Numbered from the stretch's first letter, positions 43,125 to 49,830 are shown. The stretch is 64,000 nt of DNA from Nitrospirota bacterium (GCA_040757595.1 JBFLWP010000004.1:146351-210350); one strand, 5' to 3'. Notes: generated from the sequence alone by a model not told the origin. A program made the numbers and translations.

Positions 43125-44219
43125 ATGCACAAACGGTTGGTGGAGCGGTCCAGGAATCAGCGAGTTGAGCGATCACCGTCTCAACCCAGGCTGAGTTTGG
43201 TACTGGCCTGTCTTTTGGGTTTGGGATCGATCTTTATAAGCGACGTCCAAGCCTTTGACTGGGTGCCATCCCAGGAAGAAATCCGAAAGTACCGGAATAC
43301 CTGGAACCCGCTTGCCAACGGCCCCATCTTTATTACCAGCGTGGACGTGCACCCCAAGGGACAACTGACGATCCATCCCTTTCTTTTTTCCCAGATCAGC
43401 GAGAAACGCTTCGGCAACGACCTCAGTGTGAATCGGAGTCCGGCTCCCACTCATTCGTATCAGATCAATCCGCTGACTACGATCGCTTATGGAATTACCG
43501 ATCACTTGGAATTGAACGTTGGTCTGTCGGAATCCACCTTCTGGGCTCGAGACTCAAGTCGGTTCAACCAAGGCAAGGGCGGACCTGTCACGACCAACTC
43601 GGGCATGGGAGATACCCAGGTCTACCTGAAGTACCGGCCCGTCGTTCAAGACCCGGATACCTGGCGCCCTTCGATCACGACGTTCAACATGATTGTCCTG
43701 CCCACAAGTCGCTGGTTCACCGGGACACAGAGCCCGCCAGGGGGCTTCGCTCCCTTAGGCCGTCTCCCCGCAACGCGCTTCGGCTCCCTGACCTGGACGG
43801 AGGGACTGATGGCCAGAAAGATTCTCCAGCCGTTCCGAATCAGCGGCGGTATCTTCTATTCCTACCATTTACCTGGCAGCGATGCCGGGCAGACCACGTA
43901 CCCAGCCGACATCATCAACACCCGGTTGATCATCGAGCATATTCTGGACGACAAACGAGGCTTGGGATACAGCCTCGAATTCGTCGGATTCCACGGGCTG
44001 ACCTGGCGGGCAGATGGACACCGGATCAATGCCGGTGGCCAAAACGGGTTCAGCACGCTGGGGGTCCAGCCAAGCCTCCAGTTCCGGATCGGCGACAATT
44101 GGGTCGGCGCAACCGGCGTCCTCTTCTCCGTCGCTGGCCAGAATACTCTGGCCGCGATTTACCCCAATTTCTCCATCTATTACTACTGGAACCCGAAGGG
44201 GAAGGTGGTCATGCGGTAG
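43125..44219 (+). CDS. Predicted outer-membrane beta-barrel protein
   Basis: A 364-residue exported protein with a signal segment (LVLACLLGLGSIFISDVQA, then FDWVP). The mature part is rich in alternating strands with Gly and aromatics (GMGDTQVYLKYRP, GYSLEFVGFHGLTW, IYYYWNPKG), as in transporter-like barrels. No substrate can be named. AAGGAGGG precedes the ATG at 43125. Shared Crp- and ArsR-type sites suggest it belongs to the arsenic regulon. Confidence 0.7.
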   Translation: MHKRLVERSRNQRVERSPSQPRLSLVLACLLGLGSIFISDVQAFDWVPSQEEIRKYRNTWNPLANGPIFITSVDVHPKGQLTIHPFLFSQISEKRFGNDLSVNRSPAPTHSYQINPLTTIAYGITDHLELNVGLSESTFWARDSSRFNQGKGGPVTTNSGMGDTQVYLKYRPVVQDPDTWRPSITTFNMIVLPTSRWFTGTQSPPGGFAPLGRLPATRFGSLTWTEGLMARKILQPFRISGGIFYSYHLPGSDAGQTTYPADIINTRLIIEHILDDKRGLGYSLEFVGFHGLTWRADGHRINAGGQNGFSTLGVQPSLQFRIGDNWVGATGVLFSVAGQNTLAAIYPNFSIYYYWNPKGKVVMR

Positions 44220-44237
44220 CGGCGTGCACGAACCGGG

Positions 44238-44265
44238 CACCCGTTGCGCTCACTTGCAACGGGTG
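44238..44265 (+). terminator. Terminator-like hairpin after the barrel-protein gene
   Basis: CACCCGTTGC and GCAACGGGTG form a perfect 10-bp stem around an 8-base loop. Downstream AATCGTTATT is only weakly T-rich. Confidence 0.6.
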
Positions 44266-44367
44266 AATCGTTATTCCTCGCATCGTGCGCCCTGCGGCGG
44301 GGCGGTCACCTAGAAACGGTGAATAGGGAGGTTGAGTAGGGTGGAGATGGCGAGGAACAACCGTGTG

Positions 44368-44604
44368 CTACGGCGCTGAGCCCGCCAGTTCTCGTGCATG
44401 AGCAATCTCATGCTTGTGGACGGGACGAACCTGAAAGTCCTCAAGCGTCACAACCGCTACCGTCTCGCCATCCAAGGTTGTAAACTCTACCTCGTAACCC
44501 TTGCCCTCCTGGTGAACCAACACCACGGTTCCAATGTCCCCTCGTCGAAGACCGTGCTGGGGAAGGTCACACTCCAGAACGACATCGTCCAGATCCTGAA
44601 TCAT
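44368..44604 (-). CDS. DUF4926 protein
   Basis: A 78-residue small beta-rich DUF4926 protein (LPQHGLRRGDIGTVVLVH, EVEFTTLDGETVAVVTL). It overlaps the DUF6883 gene by 4 bp (ATGA), so the two are translated together. DUF4926 genes often accompany DUF6883 ones in what look like toxin-antitoxin-style pairs. The activity is unproven. Confidence 0.75.
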   Translation of the reverse strand: MIQDLDDVVLECDLPQHGLRRGDIGTVVLVHQEGKGYEVEFTTLDGETVAVVTLEDFQVRPVHKHEIAHARELAGSAP

Positions 44605-44948
44605 GGCGTCCTCCGTTTCAGGGGATAAGCGGTCACGAACCGCGGCGTCTGGCCACCTTCATCTATAAACCAGACCGTTCGAACTTGCAATTGCCGTCCA
44701 CTCGGTGCGACAAGCGGGCCTTCAATCACGTAACGTCTACCGAACCGCGTGTTCTCGTAGGACGTGACGAGGTTGTCTCTGGCATGCTGTTGCAACGCCC
44801 TTGCCAAAACTTCCCAGGCAGATGCCTGGAACCCGAGTCCAGAAAAGAAAGCCGCCTTCCCCTTGCCCGCCCGATGAGTCGAGGAAAGCAGATACTGAAC
44901 GACCTTGGCCTGACGAATTTCAAGGCGGTCCACATGGGGGAGTTTCAT
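44601..44948 (-). CDS. DUF6883 protein
   Basis: A 115-residue DUF6883-like protein (KVVQYLLSSTHRAGKGKAAFF, RRYVIEGPLVAPSG, VRTVWFIDEGG). I chose the ATG at 44948. Its start overlaps the stop of the RM remnant (ATGA), and its stop overlaps DUF4926. It resembles small proteins encoded as two-gene cassettes, possibly a toxin partner, which is inference. Confidence 0.68.
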   Translation of the reverse strand: MKLPHVDRLEIRQAKVVQYLLSSTHRAGKGKAAFFSGLGFQASAWEVLARALQQHARDNLVTSYENTRFGRRYVIEGPLVAPSGRQLQVRTVWFIDEGGQTPRFVTAYPLKRRTP

Positions 44949-45034
44949 GCTTGCGCCATGCCTCCCACAATCCCGATTTCCTTCCACACCAGGCCATAAA
45001 GATCGGAGACGCGGCCTATCTCGCGATCGGGGGC
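44945..45034 (-). pseudogene. Remnant of a second type IIG RM enzyme C-terminus
   Basis: In one reverse frame this encodes APDREIGRVSDLYGL followed by VWKEIGIVGG, closely matching residues ATDREIDRLVYDLYGL and EEIGIVEG of the intact enzyme at 45156-49094. The upstream part is not recognisable. It looks like a duplicated or deleted copy of the enzyme's 3' region. Confidence 0.6.
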
Positions 45035-45155
45035 GTGGAGAGCCCTGTTGCTCGGATTGTACCTGCGCCCAAGCTGGCGGAGTCGTGCGCGCAATGGGCG
45101 GAAATCGCGGGCAATGGCTTGACGTTCGTCGGTCTCGTTAGCGTGCGCCCTCGTC

Positions 45156-48100
45156 TCAAAGCGCCGTCAGAAGCCTCTGCGCCCATAACTCGGTCAACGG
45201 CTCCAGGTCGCCGTGATCAGCGGCCTGCAAGGCGTCGAGGTACTGCCGGCGTCCATCCGGGTTCAGCGGCGCGGTTCCGACGTGGGGCAGGGAAAGCTTG
45301 TACAGCAAGGCGGCAAGGAGGACGCGCCCGATTCGGCCGTTGAAGTCCTTGAACGGATGAATGGCCTGGAACCGACCATCGGTCCACGCAAGCAGTTCAG
45401 CCAGGGTCTGAAGATCGGTGTGCCGAGGACGGATATGGCGTTGGCGTTCGGCTAGGTCGTCACAATAGAGCCGGATCTGGACCGGCACTTCATAGAACGG
45501 TGGCGGGGTATGCGCCCCGACTTGCACATTCACGTCACGGAATCGTCCAGCCCAATCAGGAAAGAGCTCGCCGGCCAAGTCTTTGTGACGCAGGCACAGC
45601 CACTCGGGGGTGATGGCAATCTGTTCGGGCGGCGTGCCGGGGATATTGTCCAGGATGCCCGCCAACGCGACGGCCAGCCGTTCCGAGACTTGCTGGTGGG
45701 ACAGAGTCCCCTCCGCTGTCTCGAAATAGCGTGTCGTGCCTAGCTGACCTGAGCTTTTTTCCGATTCTTCAGGAGAGTCTTCAGGCGGGCCATACTCAAC
45801 GGTTCGTTCTCGAACGCCATGGACTCCACGACTCGCTCCAGAACAACCTTCCGGTGCGCGGCCGCCACTTTTTCCGGCGTGTCGTGCCGCTGTTGCCATT
45901 GACGGAGCTTGGCATCCGCCTTCTTGAGATCGAGAGGAGCTTGGGTTTTCATGGCTGGTATTTTCGCATGCCGTGGGCTCGGAGGCAACCGCCGTCCCCT
46001 CTACGATCCCGATCTCCTCCTGCGTCAGGCCGTAGAGGTCGTAGACGAGCCGGTCAATCTCGCGGTCGGTGGCGCCAATCTGCGCCTGCAGGCGGGTCTT
46101 GTCGTTCGGGTTCTTCGTGGCCGCAAGCCGCTTGTGCAGGTCCAGCATGCGCTCGACCAGCGAGACCATCTTGTCGTGTCTGGCTTTGCCAGTTGGGTCA
46201 GAGAAGTCGACTGAGTAGATAGGCGCGGAACGGATAAAGCGGGCTTCAAAGGAATAGTACCCACTCTCCATCTGTTGGCCAGACGAGGTGATGAAGAAAT
46301 TGAGTGCGCGGCTGTTCAAGAGGCCCAACAAGTAGAGAGGATTGACGCCTTCTTTTGGCAACAGCCCGTATCCGCCAGCAGCGCCACCCAGGAAGAACAG
46401 GTCTCCCGATGAGTCAAAGAGGAAGGACGAGCGGGGGGCTAAATCAGGGGTGATGAGTTTAGAAAGAGGCATGACATCAAGAGCCTGTGTCCTTCCGTAT
46501 CCATACCAGCCAGCATGGTTCATGCTTCCGTCTTCGCGATCGCGAAGATATCTCTCGTTTGCCTTCAGGTATCGGTATGTCTTGGGAAACCGGCGTCTCA
46601 ACTCGCCTTCTTCTATTAATCGCACTGATTCACCAGATTGAACGTACGGGAAAATGACGACCCGCTCGGGAGGCAATGAAACATACGGTCGCATTTCAGT
46701 GCCCTTAATCAGTTTGTGGCACAGGCCGCGTTCTAGCTCTACGTCCTTGCCGAGATGAATGGAATGGCCTTTGACGGATCGTGCGGTTTCACGCTTGAGC
46801 TCCAGCGCATAAATCTTGTCTGCGCTCGTCTTCAATCCCTGGAAAATCCGCGTTGTGCACTCCTCAAGCGGCAAGCCACGTTTGGCAAGCTTCTCGATCA
46901 ATGCCATCGCCTTTGCTGGCTTGAAGACCCACGGTGCTTCAGAAAGGAACCTTGCGGACAGAGCAGACGCCGGTGCGTCGGCCAGAGCCTGGGACAGTGG
47001 GATATCCTCTGTTAGCTTGGGCACTTCGATGTATTGGAACGAATCCTTGGGGGCCTTGGACAGGATTAGGATGCACGTGTTCACGAAGGCTGCACCAAAG
47101 ACCTGATTGTTTGTAAAGCTCACAACCGTATCAACGTTCTTCCCGGCCGCAAGGAACGCGCGCAAGGCTGCGCCATACTGAACCTGCCAAAATTTCTGCG
47201 GCATGATGAACCCAAGCCGCCCGTTTACGTTCAATAGGGATAGTCCGTGCTCGACAAAGACCACGTAAATGTCATAGTTGCCTTCCCTCGCCGATTCGTA
47301 GCTTCGTTTGAATATCTCAGCGACCGCCGGCATCCATTCTTGCATAGTCTGAATCCGCACGTACGGCGGATTGCCGATCACGGCATCGAAGCCGCTCGCA
47401 TCCACACCCTCACCCTTACCCTCTCCCTTCGAGGGAGAGGGAGTTCGTGAAAGGATCTCCGGGAACTCGGCCTGCCAGTCGAACGGATTGACGCGCCTCA
47501 TTTCGTCTTCGTCCGGCAGGAGTTGCCCGCTGAAGTAGTCCGGGCCGATCAGACTGTTTCCGCATTTGATGTTCTTGCCGAGGTCCGGCAGCGCCCGTTC
47601 CTTGACGAACGACAACTGCCGCCTGAGCGTTTCGTCGTTTTCGCCTTCGAGCACCTTGAGCAACAGGCTGAGCTTCGTGACCTCCACGGCCTGGGGGTCA
47701 ATGTCCACGCCGTAGATGTTGTTCAGGAGAATGCGCTTCTTCTCCTGGGTCGTCAGACGCCAGTCGCCTGCAGCGGTCTTGTAGAGTTCCTTTTTGTGTC
47801 GCTCCGGTCCGTCCTTCACGTACCAGTCGCGGTGGTAGGTCACGAGATAGTCATAGGCGCCGATCAGGAAGGAGCCGGAACCGCAGGCTGGGTCGAGGAT
47901 GCGGAGTTTGGCGATCTGCTTGGGTGTCTTCTCTTCACAGAGTTTCCCCACGGTCTGCTTGACGATGTAGTCCACGATGTAGGCCGGCGTGTAATAGACG
48001 CCGCCGGCTTTCTTGACCTCCGGCTTCTCTTCGACCCTGGCCTGGTGCCCGGCCGTGAGGCGGATGACCTTGCCGAGGAACTGCTCATACACCTGCCCGA

Positions 48101-49094
48101 GAATCTCCGCCGGAAAGACGGAGAACTCGTAGGGGCTTTTCGGCGCATAGAGGCGGTCAATGATGTCTTTGAGGACCTTGTCGTCAACGATGAGGTCGAG
48201 CGTCAGCTCATCCGGCGCCTCGGCGCGGTCCGCTTCGCGCTGAAAGTGGAAGAGGCCGGAGTTGTACCGGTCGTCGGCTTGGCGGAACAGGTGCTTCAGC
48301 CGGGCGTAGGTGTGCTCGCCGTTCAGCAGCGCCTGGAGCTGTCCATAGTGCTCGGCGCCCCGGTCTTCGCAGATGCGCAGGAAGATGATCCGGTCAATGG
48401 TACGCTGGACGGCGAAGTTGAGGTCATGCACGGACAGCGCGCGATTCCGCAGGGCCAGGTTCTTGGCGAGCACGTCCCGCCACTGTTCGATCTCCGCCAG
48501 GAACTCGGCATCCACCGTGGCCGTGCCGCGTTTGCGGTCCGCCGCCGCGTATTTGTCGAAGGAGCCCTTGAGCACGGCGTCCTTGGAAAAAACGGACGCG
48601 ATCTCCTCCCACCGGGTCTCATAGTCCCGATAGGTCAAATAGAGGCTGCGGTGCGCGCTGGGCTTGTCGGTCGAAGCCGGACGGGTCCGGCAGTCATAGA
48701 CGACGAACTCTTCGAAATCGGTCAGGATGGACAGGGGGAGCTTGGCGGACCAGGCATAGCGCCGCAGTTGATAGGCCGGCGCCGGATCGTCTTTCAGATT
48801 GACGGCGGGATTTTTCGCTTCGACGAAGAACTTGCGCGTCCCGCCGATGCGAAAGCAGTAATCGGGCGCCTTCTCCACACCACCGATCTTGACCGCATCC
48901 TCGTGGGTCACCTCACGGTAGGCCGGCGCGTACCCTTGCCGGTTGGTGACATCCCATCCCAAGGCTTCAAAGAAGGGGTCCAGGTATTCCCGGCGCAGTT
49001 GCGTTTCATTCAGCCCATGCTCCCGGTACTCGTCCCGGTTGTGTCCGAACCGGGCGATGAGATCCAGGACTTGTTGCGGCGGACCTTGGGGCAT
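45156..49094 (-). CDS. Type IIG restriction-modification enzyme fused in frame to a Fic domain
   Basis: A 1312-residue open frame. Residues 1-200 contain a PD-(D/E)xK-like nuclease (APDYCFRIGG, then FVEAKNP). Motif I for SAM is LDPACGSGSFLIGAYD and motif IV is IGNPPYVRI. A target-recognition region follows, ending near EEIGIVEGT. After a low-complexity stretch read through a small ORF in another frame, residues about 1120-1312 form a Fic domain with HPFKDFNGRIGR starting at H1246. Residues about 549-563 come from a REP-like insertion. No internal in-frame ATG, GTG or TTG precedes the Fic domain, so it is either a true fusion or split by a one-base sequencing error. Confidence 0.72.
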   Translation of the reverse strand: MPQGPPQQVLDLIARFGHNRDEYREHGLNETQLRREYLDPFFEALGWDVTNRQGYAPAYREVTHEDAVKIGGVEKAPDYCFRIGGTRKFFVEAKNPAVNLKDDPAPAYQLRRYAWSAKLPLSILTDFEEFVVYDCRTRPASTDKPSAHRSLYLTYRDYETRWEEIASVFSKDAVLKGSFDKYAAADRKRGTATVDAEFLAEIEQWRDVLAKNLALRNRALSVHDLNFAVQRTIDRIIFLRICEDRGAEHYGQLQALLNGEHTYARLKHLFRQADDRYNSGLFHFQREADRAEAPDELTLDLIVDDKVLKDIIDRLYAPKSPYEFSVFPAEILGQVYEQFLGKVIRLTAGHQARVEEKPEVKKAGGVYYTPAYIVDYIVKQTVGKLCEEKTPKQIAKLRILDPACGSGSFLIGAYDYLVTYHRDWYVKDGPERHKKELYKTAAGDWRLTTQEKKRILLNNIYGVDIDPQAVEVTKLSLLLKVLEGENDETLRRQLSFVKERALPDLGKNIKCGNSLIGPDYFSGQLLPDEDEMRRVNPFDWQAEFPEILSRTPSPSKGEGKGEGVDASGFDAVIGNPPYVRIQTMQEWMPAVAEIFKRSYESAREGNYDIYVVFVEHGLSLLNVNGRLGFIMPQKFWQVQYGAALRAFLAAGKNVDTVVSFTNNQVFGAAFVNTCILILSKAPKDSFQYIEVPKLTEDIPLSQALADAPASALSARFLSEAPWVFKPAKAMALIEKLAKRGLPLEECTTRIFQGLKTSADKIYALELKRETARSVKGHSIHLGKDVELERGLCHKLIKGTEMRPYVSLPPERVVIFPYVQSGESVRLIEEGELRRRFPKTYRYLKANERYLRDREDGSMNHAGWYGYGRTQALDVMPLSKLITPDLAPRSSFLFDSSGDLFFLGGAAGGYGLLPKEGVNPLYLLGLLNSRALNFFITSSGQQMESGYYSFEARFIRSAPIYSVDFSDPTGKARHDKMVSLVERMLDLHKRLAATKNPNDKTRLQAQIGATDREIDRLVYDLYGLTQEEIGIVEGTAVASEPTACENTSHENPSSSRSQEGGCQAPSMATAARHAGKSGGRAPEGCSGASRGVHGVRERTVEYGPPEDSPEESEKSSGQLGTTRYFETAEGTLSHQQVSERLAVALAGILDNIPGTPPEQIAITPEWLCLRHKDLAGELFPDWAGRFRDVNVQVGAHTPPPFYEVPVQIRLYCDDLAERQRHIRPRHTDLQTLAELLAWTDGRFQAIHPFKDFNGRIGRVLLAALLYKLSLPHVGTAPLNPDGRRQYLDALQAADHGDLEPLTELWAQRLLTAL
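45740..45952 (-). CDS. Fic-antitoxin-like small protein, alternative frame
   Basis: A 70-residue helical ORF in a different frame from the RM-Fic gene and within it. It carries SMAFEN (S44 to N49), which fits the Fic-inhibitory motif (S/T)xxxE(G/N) of antitoxins such as VbhA. It ends two bases before an ACG codon that could start the Fic domain alone. No good ribosome-binding site is visible at its ATG. If real, the antitoxin is nested in its toxin's own coding DNA. Confidence 0.5.
   Translation of the reverse strand: MKTQAPLDLKKADAKLRQWQQRHDTPEKVAAAHRKVVLERVVESMAFENEPLSMARLKTLLKNRKKAQVS
47407..47441. repeat. REP-like palindrome inserted in the RM gene
   Basis: CCCTCACCCTTACCCTCTCC leads into the perfect 9-bp stem CCTCTCCCT-N3-AGGGAGAGG. 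It is translated as TPSPSKGEGKGEG, a common product of such repeats, and splits FPEIL from GFDAVIGNPPY. Confidence 0.7.
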
Positions 49095-49221
49095 GGACGG
49101 CCTCGCGGTGACCAGGGAACAGCGGCCTGCGGGAGTCTACGGAGCAGGGTCCGCCCTGTCAAGGTTGAGCGGGAACCCAGGGCAGGGTACAATGCACTTG
49201 CAGGCCGGAGGAGACAACCTG

Positions 49222-49830
49222 ATGACGTCCCCGCGGGAGCTGGACGAGGTGCTGGCCCGGTACGTGGCCGATTTCGTGGCGCGGAACGCCGCGGCGCGAA
49301 TCCTGAAGAAGGGCCTGGATGAGGTCGGGGTCGGCTTCTTTCCCCTCGCCGACCACATCACGTTCCGGACGGACGACATTGACCGCCGCGCGGAGGAGTT
49401 TCTCACGCTGGGCTACGCCTTCTCCGAGACGCTCCACTACGAGGACTGGTTCGCCAAGGTCTACCGCAAACCGGGCTACCCCGCCCTGTTCATTGACCAG
49501 GCCTACCCGGACGAGCGGGGCAAGACCAGCATCATTCCCGCCTGGGTCCGGCAGTTCGGCGACCGGACCCTGCATCACGTCGCCGTCCGGGTCGAAGACA
49601 TCGAGCAGGCGATGGCCCGGCTGCAGCGGGCCGGCGTGCGGTTCGCCGGCTCGATCGTGGGCGCGCGCGGCGGCCCGCTGCGGCAGATCTTCACGGTGCC
49701 CGAGGAGGTCAACGGCGCCCCCTTCTCCGTCGTGGAGTTGGCCGAGCGGCGCGAAGGGTTTCTCGGCTTCTCCCCGCCCCAGGCCGACGGCCTCATGAAA
49801 TCCACCGTCCGAAAAACCAGTGACAAGTGA
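49222..49830 (+). CDS. VOC family protein
   Basis: A 202-residue protein with vicinal-oxygen-chelate features (LADHITFRTDDIDRRAEEF, then HHVAVRVEDIEQAM). It resembles DUF1338-like or small dioxygenase-related members. GGAGGAG precedes the ATG at 49222. The stop codon lies in heptamer repeat sequence. Function unknown. Confidence 0.75.
   Translation: MTSPRELDEVLARYVADFVARNAAARILKKGLDEVGVGFFPLADHITFRTDDIDRRAEEFLTLGYAFSETLHYEDWFAKVYRKPGYPALFIDQAYPDERGKTSIIPAWVRQFGDRTLHHVAVRVEDIEQAMARLQRAGVRFAGSIVGARGGPLRQIFTVPEEVNGAPFSVVELAERREGFLGFSPPQADGLMKSTVRKTSDK

Follow-up and report, generated by a model that had tools for sequence, protein, structure and literature searches.

A type IIG restriction-modification enzyme in one frame with a Fic domain, and a candidate antitoxin gene nested in the join, in a Nitrospirota bacterium

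The window analysed here is a 64,000-nucleotide stretch from a Nitrospirota bacterium (GCA_040757595.1, JBFLWP010000004.1:146351-210350) whose 3.37 Mb genome is rated 100% complete. Some genomes of its family-level group have Nitrospira species as their named counterparts, which probably places the bacterium in Nitrospiraceae. On the minus strand an ATG-started frame of 1312 codons runs exactly from 49094 to 45156; its product starts as a type IIG restriction-modification (RM) enzyme and ends in a Fic domain, with about 88 disordered residues linking the two. This confirmed the uninterrupted frame described in the initial annotation, which gave no strand, and the motifs it had placed there (PD-(D/E)xK, a SAM motif, NPPY and a C-terminal Fic motif) were all located with Pfam and PADLOC support. 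The RM part, delimited by Pfam, PADLOC and the end of unfused homologues, covers residues 1-1033 (45996..49094, minus strand) up to ...LYGLTQEEIGIVEG and comprises nuclease, N6-adenine methyltransferase and target recognition regions. Its sequence carries on the minus strand the PD-(D/E)xK nuclease motif PDYCFRIGGTRKFFVEAK (48813..48866), which is also present in the related loci L032, L034, L036, L037, L040, L041 and L055, together with the SAM-binding motif DPACGSGSF (47868..47894) and the methyltransferase catalytic motif (G)NPPY (47361..47375). Searching the 1312-codon frame with Pfam returned HSDR_N (2e-9), N6_Mtase (5e-20), Eco57I (6e-44) and Fic (9e-11), and the PADLOC type IIG model PDLC03604 matched residues 7-1029 at 839 bits. 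TaqI_C falls under the cut-off in the window and over it in L041, L039, L069, L080 and L035. Nuclease, N6-adenine methyltransferase and specificity region thus lie in one chain, the combination that marks type IIG, and the RM part is assigned to that type with both cleavage and methylation predicted. Two other identities were rejected, BREX PglX (NCBIfam 92 bits vs 500 required) and mobile mystery protein B (TIGR02613; 38 bits vs 124 required), and no Rfam element was found in 44000-49500.

The linker (residues 1034-1121; 45732..45995, minus strand), supported by AlphaFold pLDDT and the stop-codon test described below, is of low complexity, as had been noted, and predicted to be disordered, with pLDDT <50 over most of its length; it is free of stops in all fused loci. 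It looks odd because its DNA doubles, in another frame, as a conserved candidate antitoxin gene. This nested ORF, found by tblastn and HMM in the +1 frame relative to RM-Fic (45952->45740; 70 aa plus stop), is unannotated and translates as MKTQAPLDLKKADAKLRQWQQRHDTPEKVAAAHRKVVLERVVESMAFENEPLSMARLKTLLKNRKKAQVS, with a TTG at 45988 as an alternative start in the window. It contains SMAFEN (45806..45823, minus strand), conserved across alignment A4 and conforming to (S/T)xxxE(G/N), the Fic-inhibitory motif of the antitoxins whose genes directly precede those of class I Fic proteins (PMC3667792). The start Met, one Trp and the S, M and E of the motif (S-M-x-x-E) are invariant in 23 antitoxins, and the final motif position varies among G, N, K, R and C. 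By sequence, the SMAFEN protein matches a class I antitoxin such as VbhA and is probably the toxin's antidote; a profile of the family gave no convincing match to Pfam or PDB. The antitoxin ATG is preceded by a weak Shine-Dalgarno site in the window and by AAGGAG, 10 nt upstream, in several fused relatives.

The Fic domain, in frame with the RM enzyme, occupies residues 1122-1312 plus the stop (45156..45731, minus strand), as defined by Pfam, a start scan, the structural model and PDB matches. AlphaFold modelled it mostly at pLDDT 85-97, and Foldseek matched its fold to FICD (9.5e-8), VbhT-VbhA (VbhT 5.8e-5), EcFicT-EcFicA and Fic-1-AntF. The scan for start codons found no ATG, GTG or TTG near the Fic N-terminus in the window. 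The active-site motif HPFKDFNGRIGR (45324..45359, minus strand), identified from the sequence and alignment A1, has Phe in place of the consensus Gly and so departs from the canonical HxFx(D/E)GNGRxxR; in alignment A1 HPF-DFNGR is invariant, with Phe for Gly throughout. Because this Phe sits where the AMPylation consensus has Gly, the Fic reaction is uncertain and its chemistry may differ.

Relatives were sought in 396 genomes of the phylum and in a scan of 84,980 species genomes, and were found, mostly in metagenome-assembled genomes, in Nitrospirota, Nitrospinota, anammox Planctomycetota, Methylomirabilota, Betaproteobacteria, Deltaproteobacteria and Verrucomicrobia. The antitoxin is present in 76/80 loci of the genome scan, and its frame relative to Fic is identical in every locus where both genes are intact. 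We sorted the loci of the tree set into class A, in which a single frame spans RM and Fic (28 loci, the window included), class B, with an ATG or GTG of its own a few codons upstream of Fic (23 loci), and class C, with no proximal start and the Fic frame open through the antitoxin to a remoter one (36 loci), often within a remnant of an RM tail. The initial annotation had proposed looking for the same fusion in other genomes, and had allowed that homologues might always be separate; the 28 class A loci answer both points in favour of the fusion. Their RM parts are as little as 30% identical, and two loci first counted as fused, L110 and L095, were rejected as chance open frames and reclassified. 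Standalone antitoxin-Fic pairs without RM persist as class B two-gene pairs. The RM enzyme has been lost or Fic broken in L014/L046, L047, L070, L094 and L107, so the device is dispensable. No relative was found among viral contigs, on which ground phage carriage was rejected, and plasmid matches were limited to distant Fic proteins at about 28-31% identity.

Conservation of the open frame was measured by keeping the antitoxin amino acids, resampling synonymous codons by local usage and counting stops in the Fic frame. Across the antitoxin, class A showed 0 stops vs 108.5 expected and class C 0 vs 98.4, these being totals over mutually related loci and hence not independent counts. Class B, where 22 of the 23 loci have stops, showed 70 vs 82.8 expected, a closeness that calibrates the null; its sole stop-free locus is L110, in 68% GC DNA. 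A proximal ATG or GTG before Fic is present in every class B locus by definition, in 0/28 of class A and in none of class C, and since the Fic tree shows 4 changes of this state the contrast between classes does not go back to one ancestral event. Upstream of codon -57 the 28 fused loci again held 0 stops vs 21.6 expected. Within the phylum, RM homologues that lack the fusion terminate at ...LYGLTEEEIKIVEG (IVEG) or within a few residues of it, which is where the linker begins; one of them, L128, retains the fused-type tail before its stop, as though its toxin had been lost. Beyond IVE, 155/240 pairwise differences fall at RM-frame third positions, and the extension evolves as RM-frame coding sequence. 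The overlap evolves as antitoxin coding sequence: the majority of changes there affect third positions of antitoxin codons, and amino acid identity is 84% in the antitoxin frame vs 64% in the linker frame, making the antitoxin the more constrained protein. Constraint on the linker seems mainly to be that it remain stop-free.

Three distinct type IIG families serve as RM partners among the fused loci: a PDLC03604-like family in the window and in Nitrospira, a PDLC03613/DrmMI-like family (the second RM type) in Nitrospirota, Nitrospinota and Deltaproteobacteria, and a PDLC03596-like family in Nitrosospira L080. The best model for L039, L056, L069 and L089 is the DISARM DrmMI model. One locus, L076, has a Schlafen AlbA_2 domain as its partner. 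The second RM type has the cassette within its RM gene, whose N-terminal part ends near ...ISFTTP..ERKKRVSEAI.LY and is followed by antitoxin and Fic and then by a separate ORF of about 150 aa for the C-terminal part (RM-C), WVERELK.GRNDTVHDFLAYLAEQMIE...IVYKLYGLTEEEIGIVEG. Uninterrupted homologues of this type, of about 1290-1390 codons, cross the insertion point without a break. The usual arrangement, seen in 8 loci, is that the RM-C start overlaps the Fic stop by 4 bases (ATGA or GTGA); from the position of the cassette inside the RM gene, ribosomes probably re-initiate at the Fic stop to translate RM-C. In the window a degenerate relic of an RM C-terminal tail, DREIGRVSDLYGLVWKEIGIVGG, remains downstream of Fic (44945..45028, minus strand; 69% identity to the RM tail over 26 residues, E 2e-5) and hints that this cassette too may formerly have been flanked by RM sequence on both sides.

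The simplest alternative is that RM, antitoxin and Fic are three ordinary neighbours, that the open frame reflects coincidence or assembly error and that Fic is translated separately. Standalone pairs in which Fic has a start of its own do exist (class B), and a GTG or ATG recurs at codon -55/-56 of the Fic frame. We rejected initiation there, since the recurrent codon is a by-product of the invariant antitoxin Trp and such a start would leave the stop-free frame upstream unexplained: initiation at -55/-56 does not need the absence of stops above codon -57. Coincidence is refuted by the missing 108.5 stops, no fused locus has a proximal Fic start, and fused RM genes continue past the IVEG at which unfused homologues terminate. 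Error in assembly or frame was likewise rejected because the same open frame is found in independent genomes; the one-base correction that the initial annotation had envisaged as ending the RM gene early would require the same indel in each of dozens of assemblies. Its view of the joining segment as an accident of frame fails for the same 28 open frames and for the homologues that stop where the linker begins. We regard separate genes as highly improbable. Programmed ribosomal frameshifting out of the antitoxin frame, whose product would be antitoxin-Fic instead of RM-Fic, would fit the -1 frame of Fic relative to the antitoxin and the A6 run near the antitoxin end in the window. However, that run is not conserved in relatives, which share no slippery run, and frameshifting needs no stop-free RM frame through the antitoxin, yet 64/64 class A and C loci keep one; we give this explanation scarcely any credence.

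A different objection accepts the fusion as real and denies that it is a toxin-antitoxin system, Fic instead reversibly modifying the RM enzyme or a host protein so as to tune restriction, with the small protein as a regulatory subunit. The departure of the Fic motif from the AMPylation consensus speaks for this, as does the report of Fic-1-AntF as a deAMPylase complex acting on GyrB (PMC13327609). It sits poorly with the persistence of two-gene antitoxin-Fic pairs without RM, and with broken Fic genes beside intact antitoxins, the trace expected of a costly toxin, and we consider it unlikely.

We therefore think it likely that the locus is a natural entangled toxin-antitoxin cassette joined to an RM enzyme, which it would make addictive or self-guarding. 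Because the arrangement recurs in dozens of genomes, the fused frame is read as an evolved device and not as a sequencing accident. The initial annotation was right that RM and Fic are covalently joined; it missed the antitoxin in the linker DNA, and what it took for an RM enzyme plus Fic would be an RM enzyme plus toxin-antitoxin. The architecture, that is the fusion, nesting, frame conservation and splitting, is well supported by comparison of the loci; toxicity, Fic chemistry and trigger are inferred. One gene would make the RM-linker-Fic protein, and an internal second start would yield the 70-aa antitoxin from the linker DNA in the +1 frame, so that, as comparative genomics shows, toxin and antidote share nucleotides. 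By motif and gene order, the antitoxin very likely binds Fic and, as VbhA does with VbhT, uses its motif Glu to keep ATP from binding productively. So long as expression of the locus continues, all RM-Fic molecules would be neutralised; were the locus lost, or its expression halted by phage or stress, the antitoxin would decay first. FicT toxins modify gyrase and topoisomerase IV, arresting growth. By analogy, the freed, RM-tethered Fic may modify an essential host protein and arrest growth. The RM system would then be both addictive and guarded, with addiction or abortive infection protecting the RM locus, and the cassette could spread by hitching to RM genes. Since the linker and the antitoxin are encoded by common DNA, frameshifts or deletions there would tend to eliminate the toxin along with its antidote, and the antidote would be encoded on every transcript that covers the whole toxin.

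Class I Fic modules (VbhA-VbhT, EcFicA/YhfG-EcFicT, AntF-Fic-1) likewise have a small antitoxin with (S/T)xxxE(G/N) directly upstream, the Fic fold and the active-motif residues His, Asp, Asn and Arg. In them, however, the ORFs are separate and at most slightly overlapping, whereas here the RM-Fic frame contains the whole antitoxin ORF. Further differences are the fusion of the toxin with an RM enzyme, the active motif HPF.DFNGR, in which Phe replaces Gly, and an antitoxin family for which Pfam offers no convincing match. Type IIG enzymes (PDLC03604, PDLC03613, PDLC03596) share the single chain of N6-adenine methyltransferase, TaqI-like specificity and nuclease, the PD-(D/E)xK nuclease being seen in the window's RM type; ordinary ones are neither fused to Fic at the C-terminus nor, as in the second type here, split by a toxin-antitoxin cassette. 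A latent cell-arresting effector tied to RM is known from EcoprrI-PrrC, where an anticodon nuclease guards a type I system (PMC12707154), although that effector is unrelated, the RM system is type I and there is no antitoxin gene. The same recent review of RM does not mention Fic (PMC12707154). The nearest engineered analogue is the synthetic entanglement of relE inside ilvA (PMC10359631), in which another gene likewise accommodates a complete toxin-system gene in an alternative frame; there the nesting is engineered and the toxin is nested, whereas here it is natural and widespread and the antitoxin is nested. Searches of openly available full texts found neither an RM-Fic fusion nor an antitoxin nested in a toxin gene.

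On balance we lean, with some reserve, towards a broader reading in which this would be a mobile toxin-antitoxin cassette whose antitoxin lies out of frame within the toxin gene, entering RM genes in the manner of an intein but without splicing, so that RM and toxin form one polypeptide and, in one RM type, translation of the remaining RM part is tied to the toxin stop; it would be a natural, selected and previously undescribed entanglement. Gene entanglement has been built synthetically against the loss of costly genes, and here it is apparently natural, involves a toxin-antitoxin pair and extends over several phyla. To annotation pipelines such a fusion would be an odd RM protein, and its antitoxin may be overlooked altogether. 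If true, the arrangement would link restriction and Fic-mediated arrest in one molecule, and would show how selfish cassettes capture RM genes.

Directly downstream of the fused restriction-modification (RM)-Fic gene, and on the minus strand, lies a DUF6883 gene (44601-44987), followed by a small ORF (44368-44604, minus strand) whose product we take to resemble DUF4926 proteins. The C-terminal tail of an RM enzyme is also present, as a degenerate copy, just 3' of the Fic stop codon (44945-45028, minus strand); this relic is similar to the flank encoding the separate RM C-terminus at the split RM loci, where the antitoxin-Fic cassette sits inside the RM gene.

Among the related loci, a Fic domain of the same family is joined at L076:4257-5549 to a Schlafen AlbA_2 domain, which replaces the RM enzyme, and here the Fic frame is stop-free through the antitoxin. 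The RM enzyme is absent altogether from five standalone verrucomicrobial antitoxin-Fic pairs (L097, L099, L103, L106 and L109), in which the Fic ORF begins at codon -58 and covers most of the antitoxin ORF; these are overlapping toxin-antitoxin genes.

Elsewhere the Fic frame is disrupted by stops, frameshifts or truncation (L014/L046, L047, L070, L094 and L107). The antitoxin went undetected solely at L107, and its frame is open at all the others, as expected for decaying toxin-antitoxin loci.
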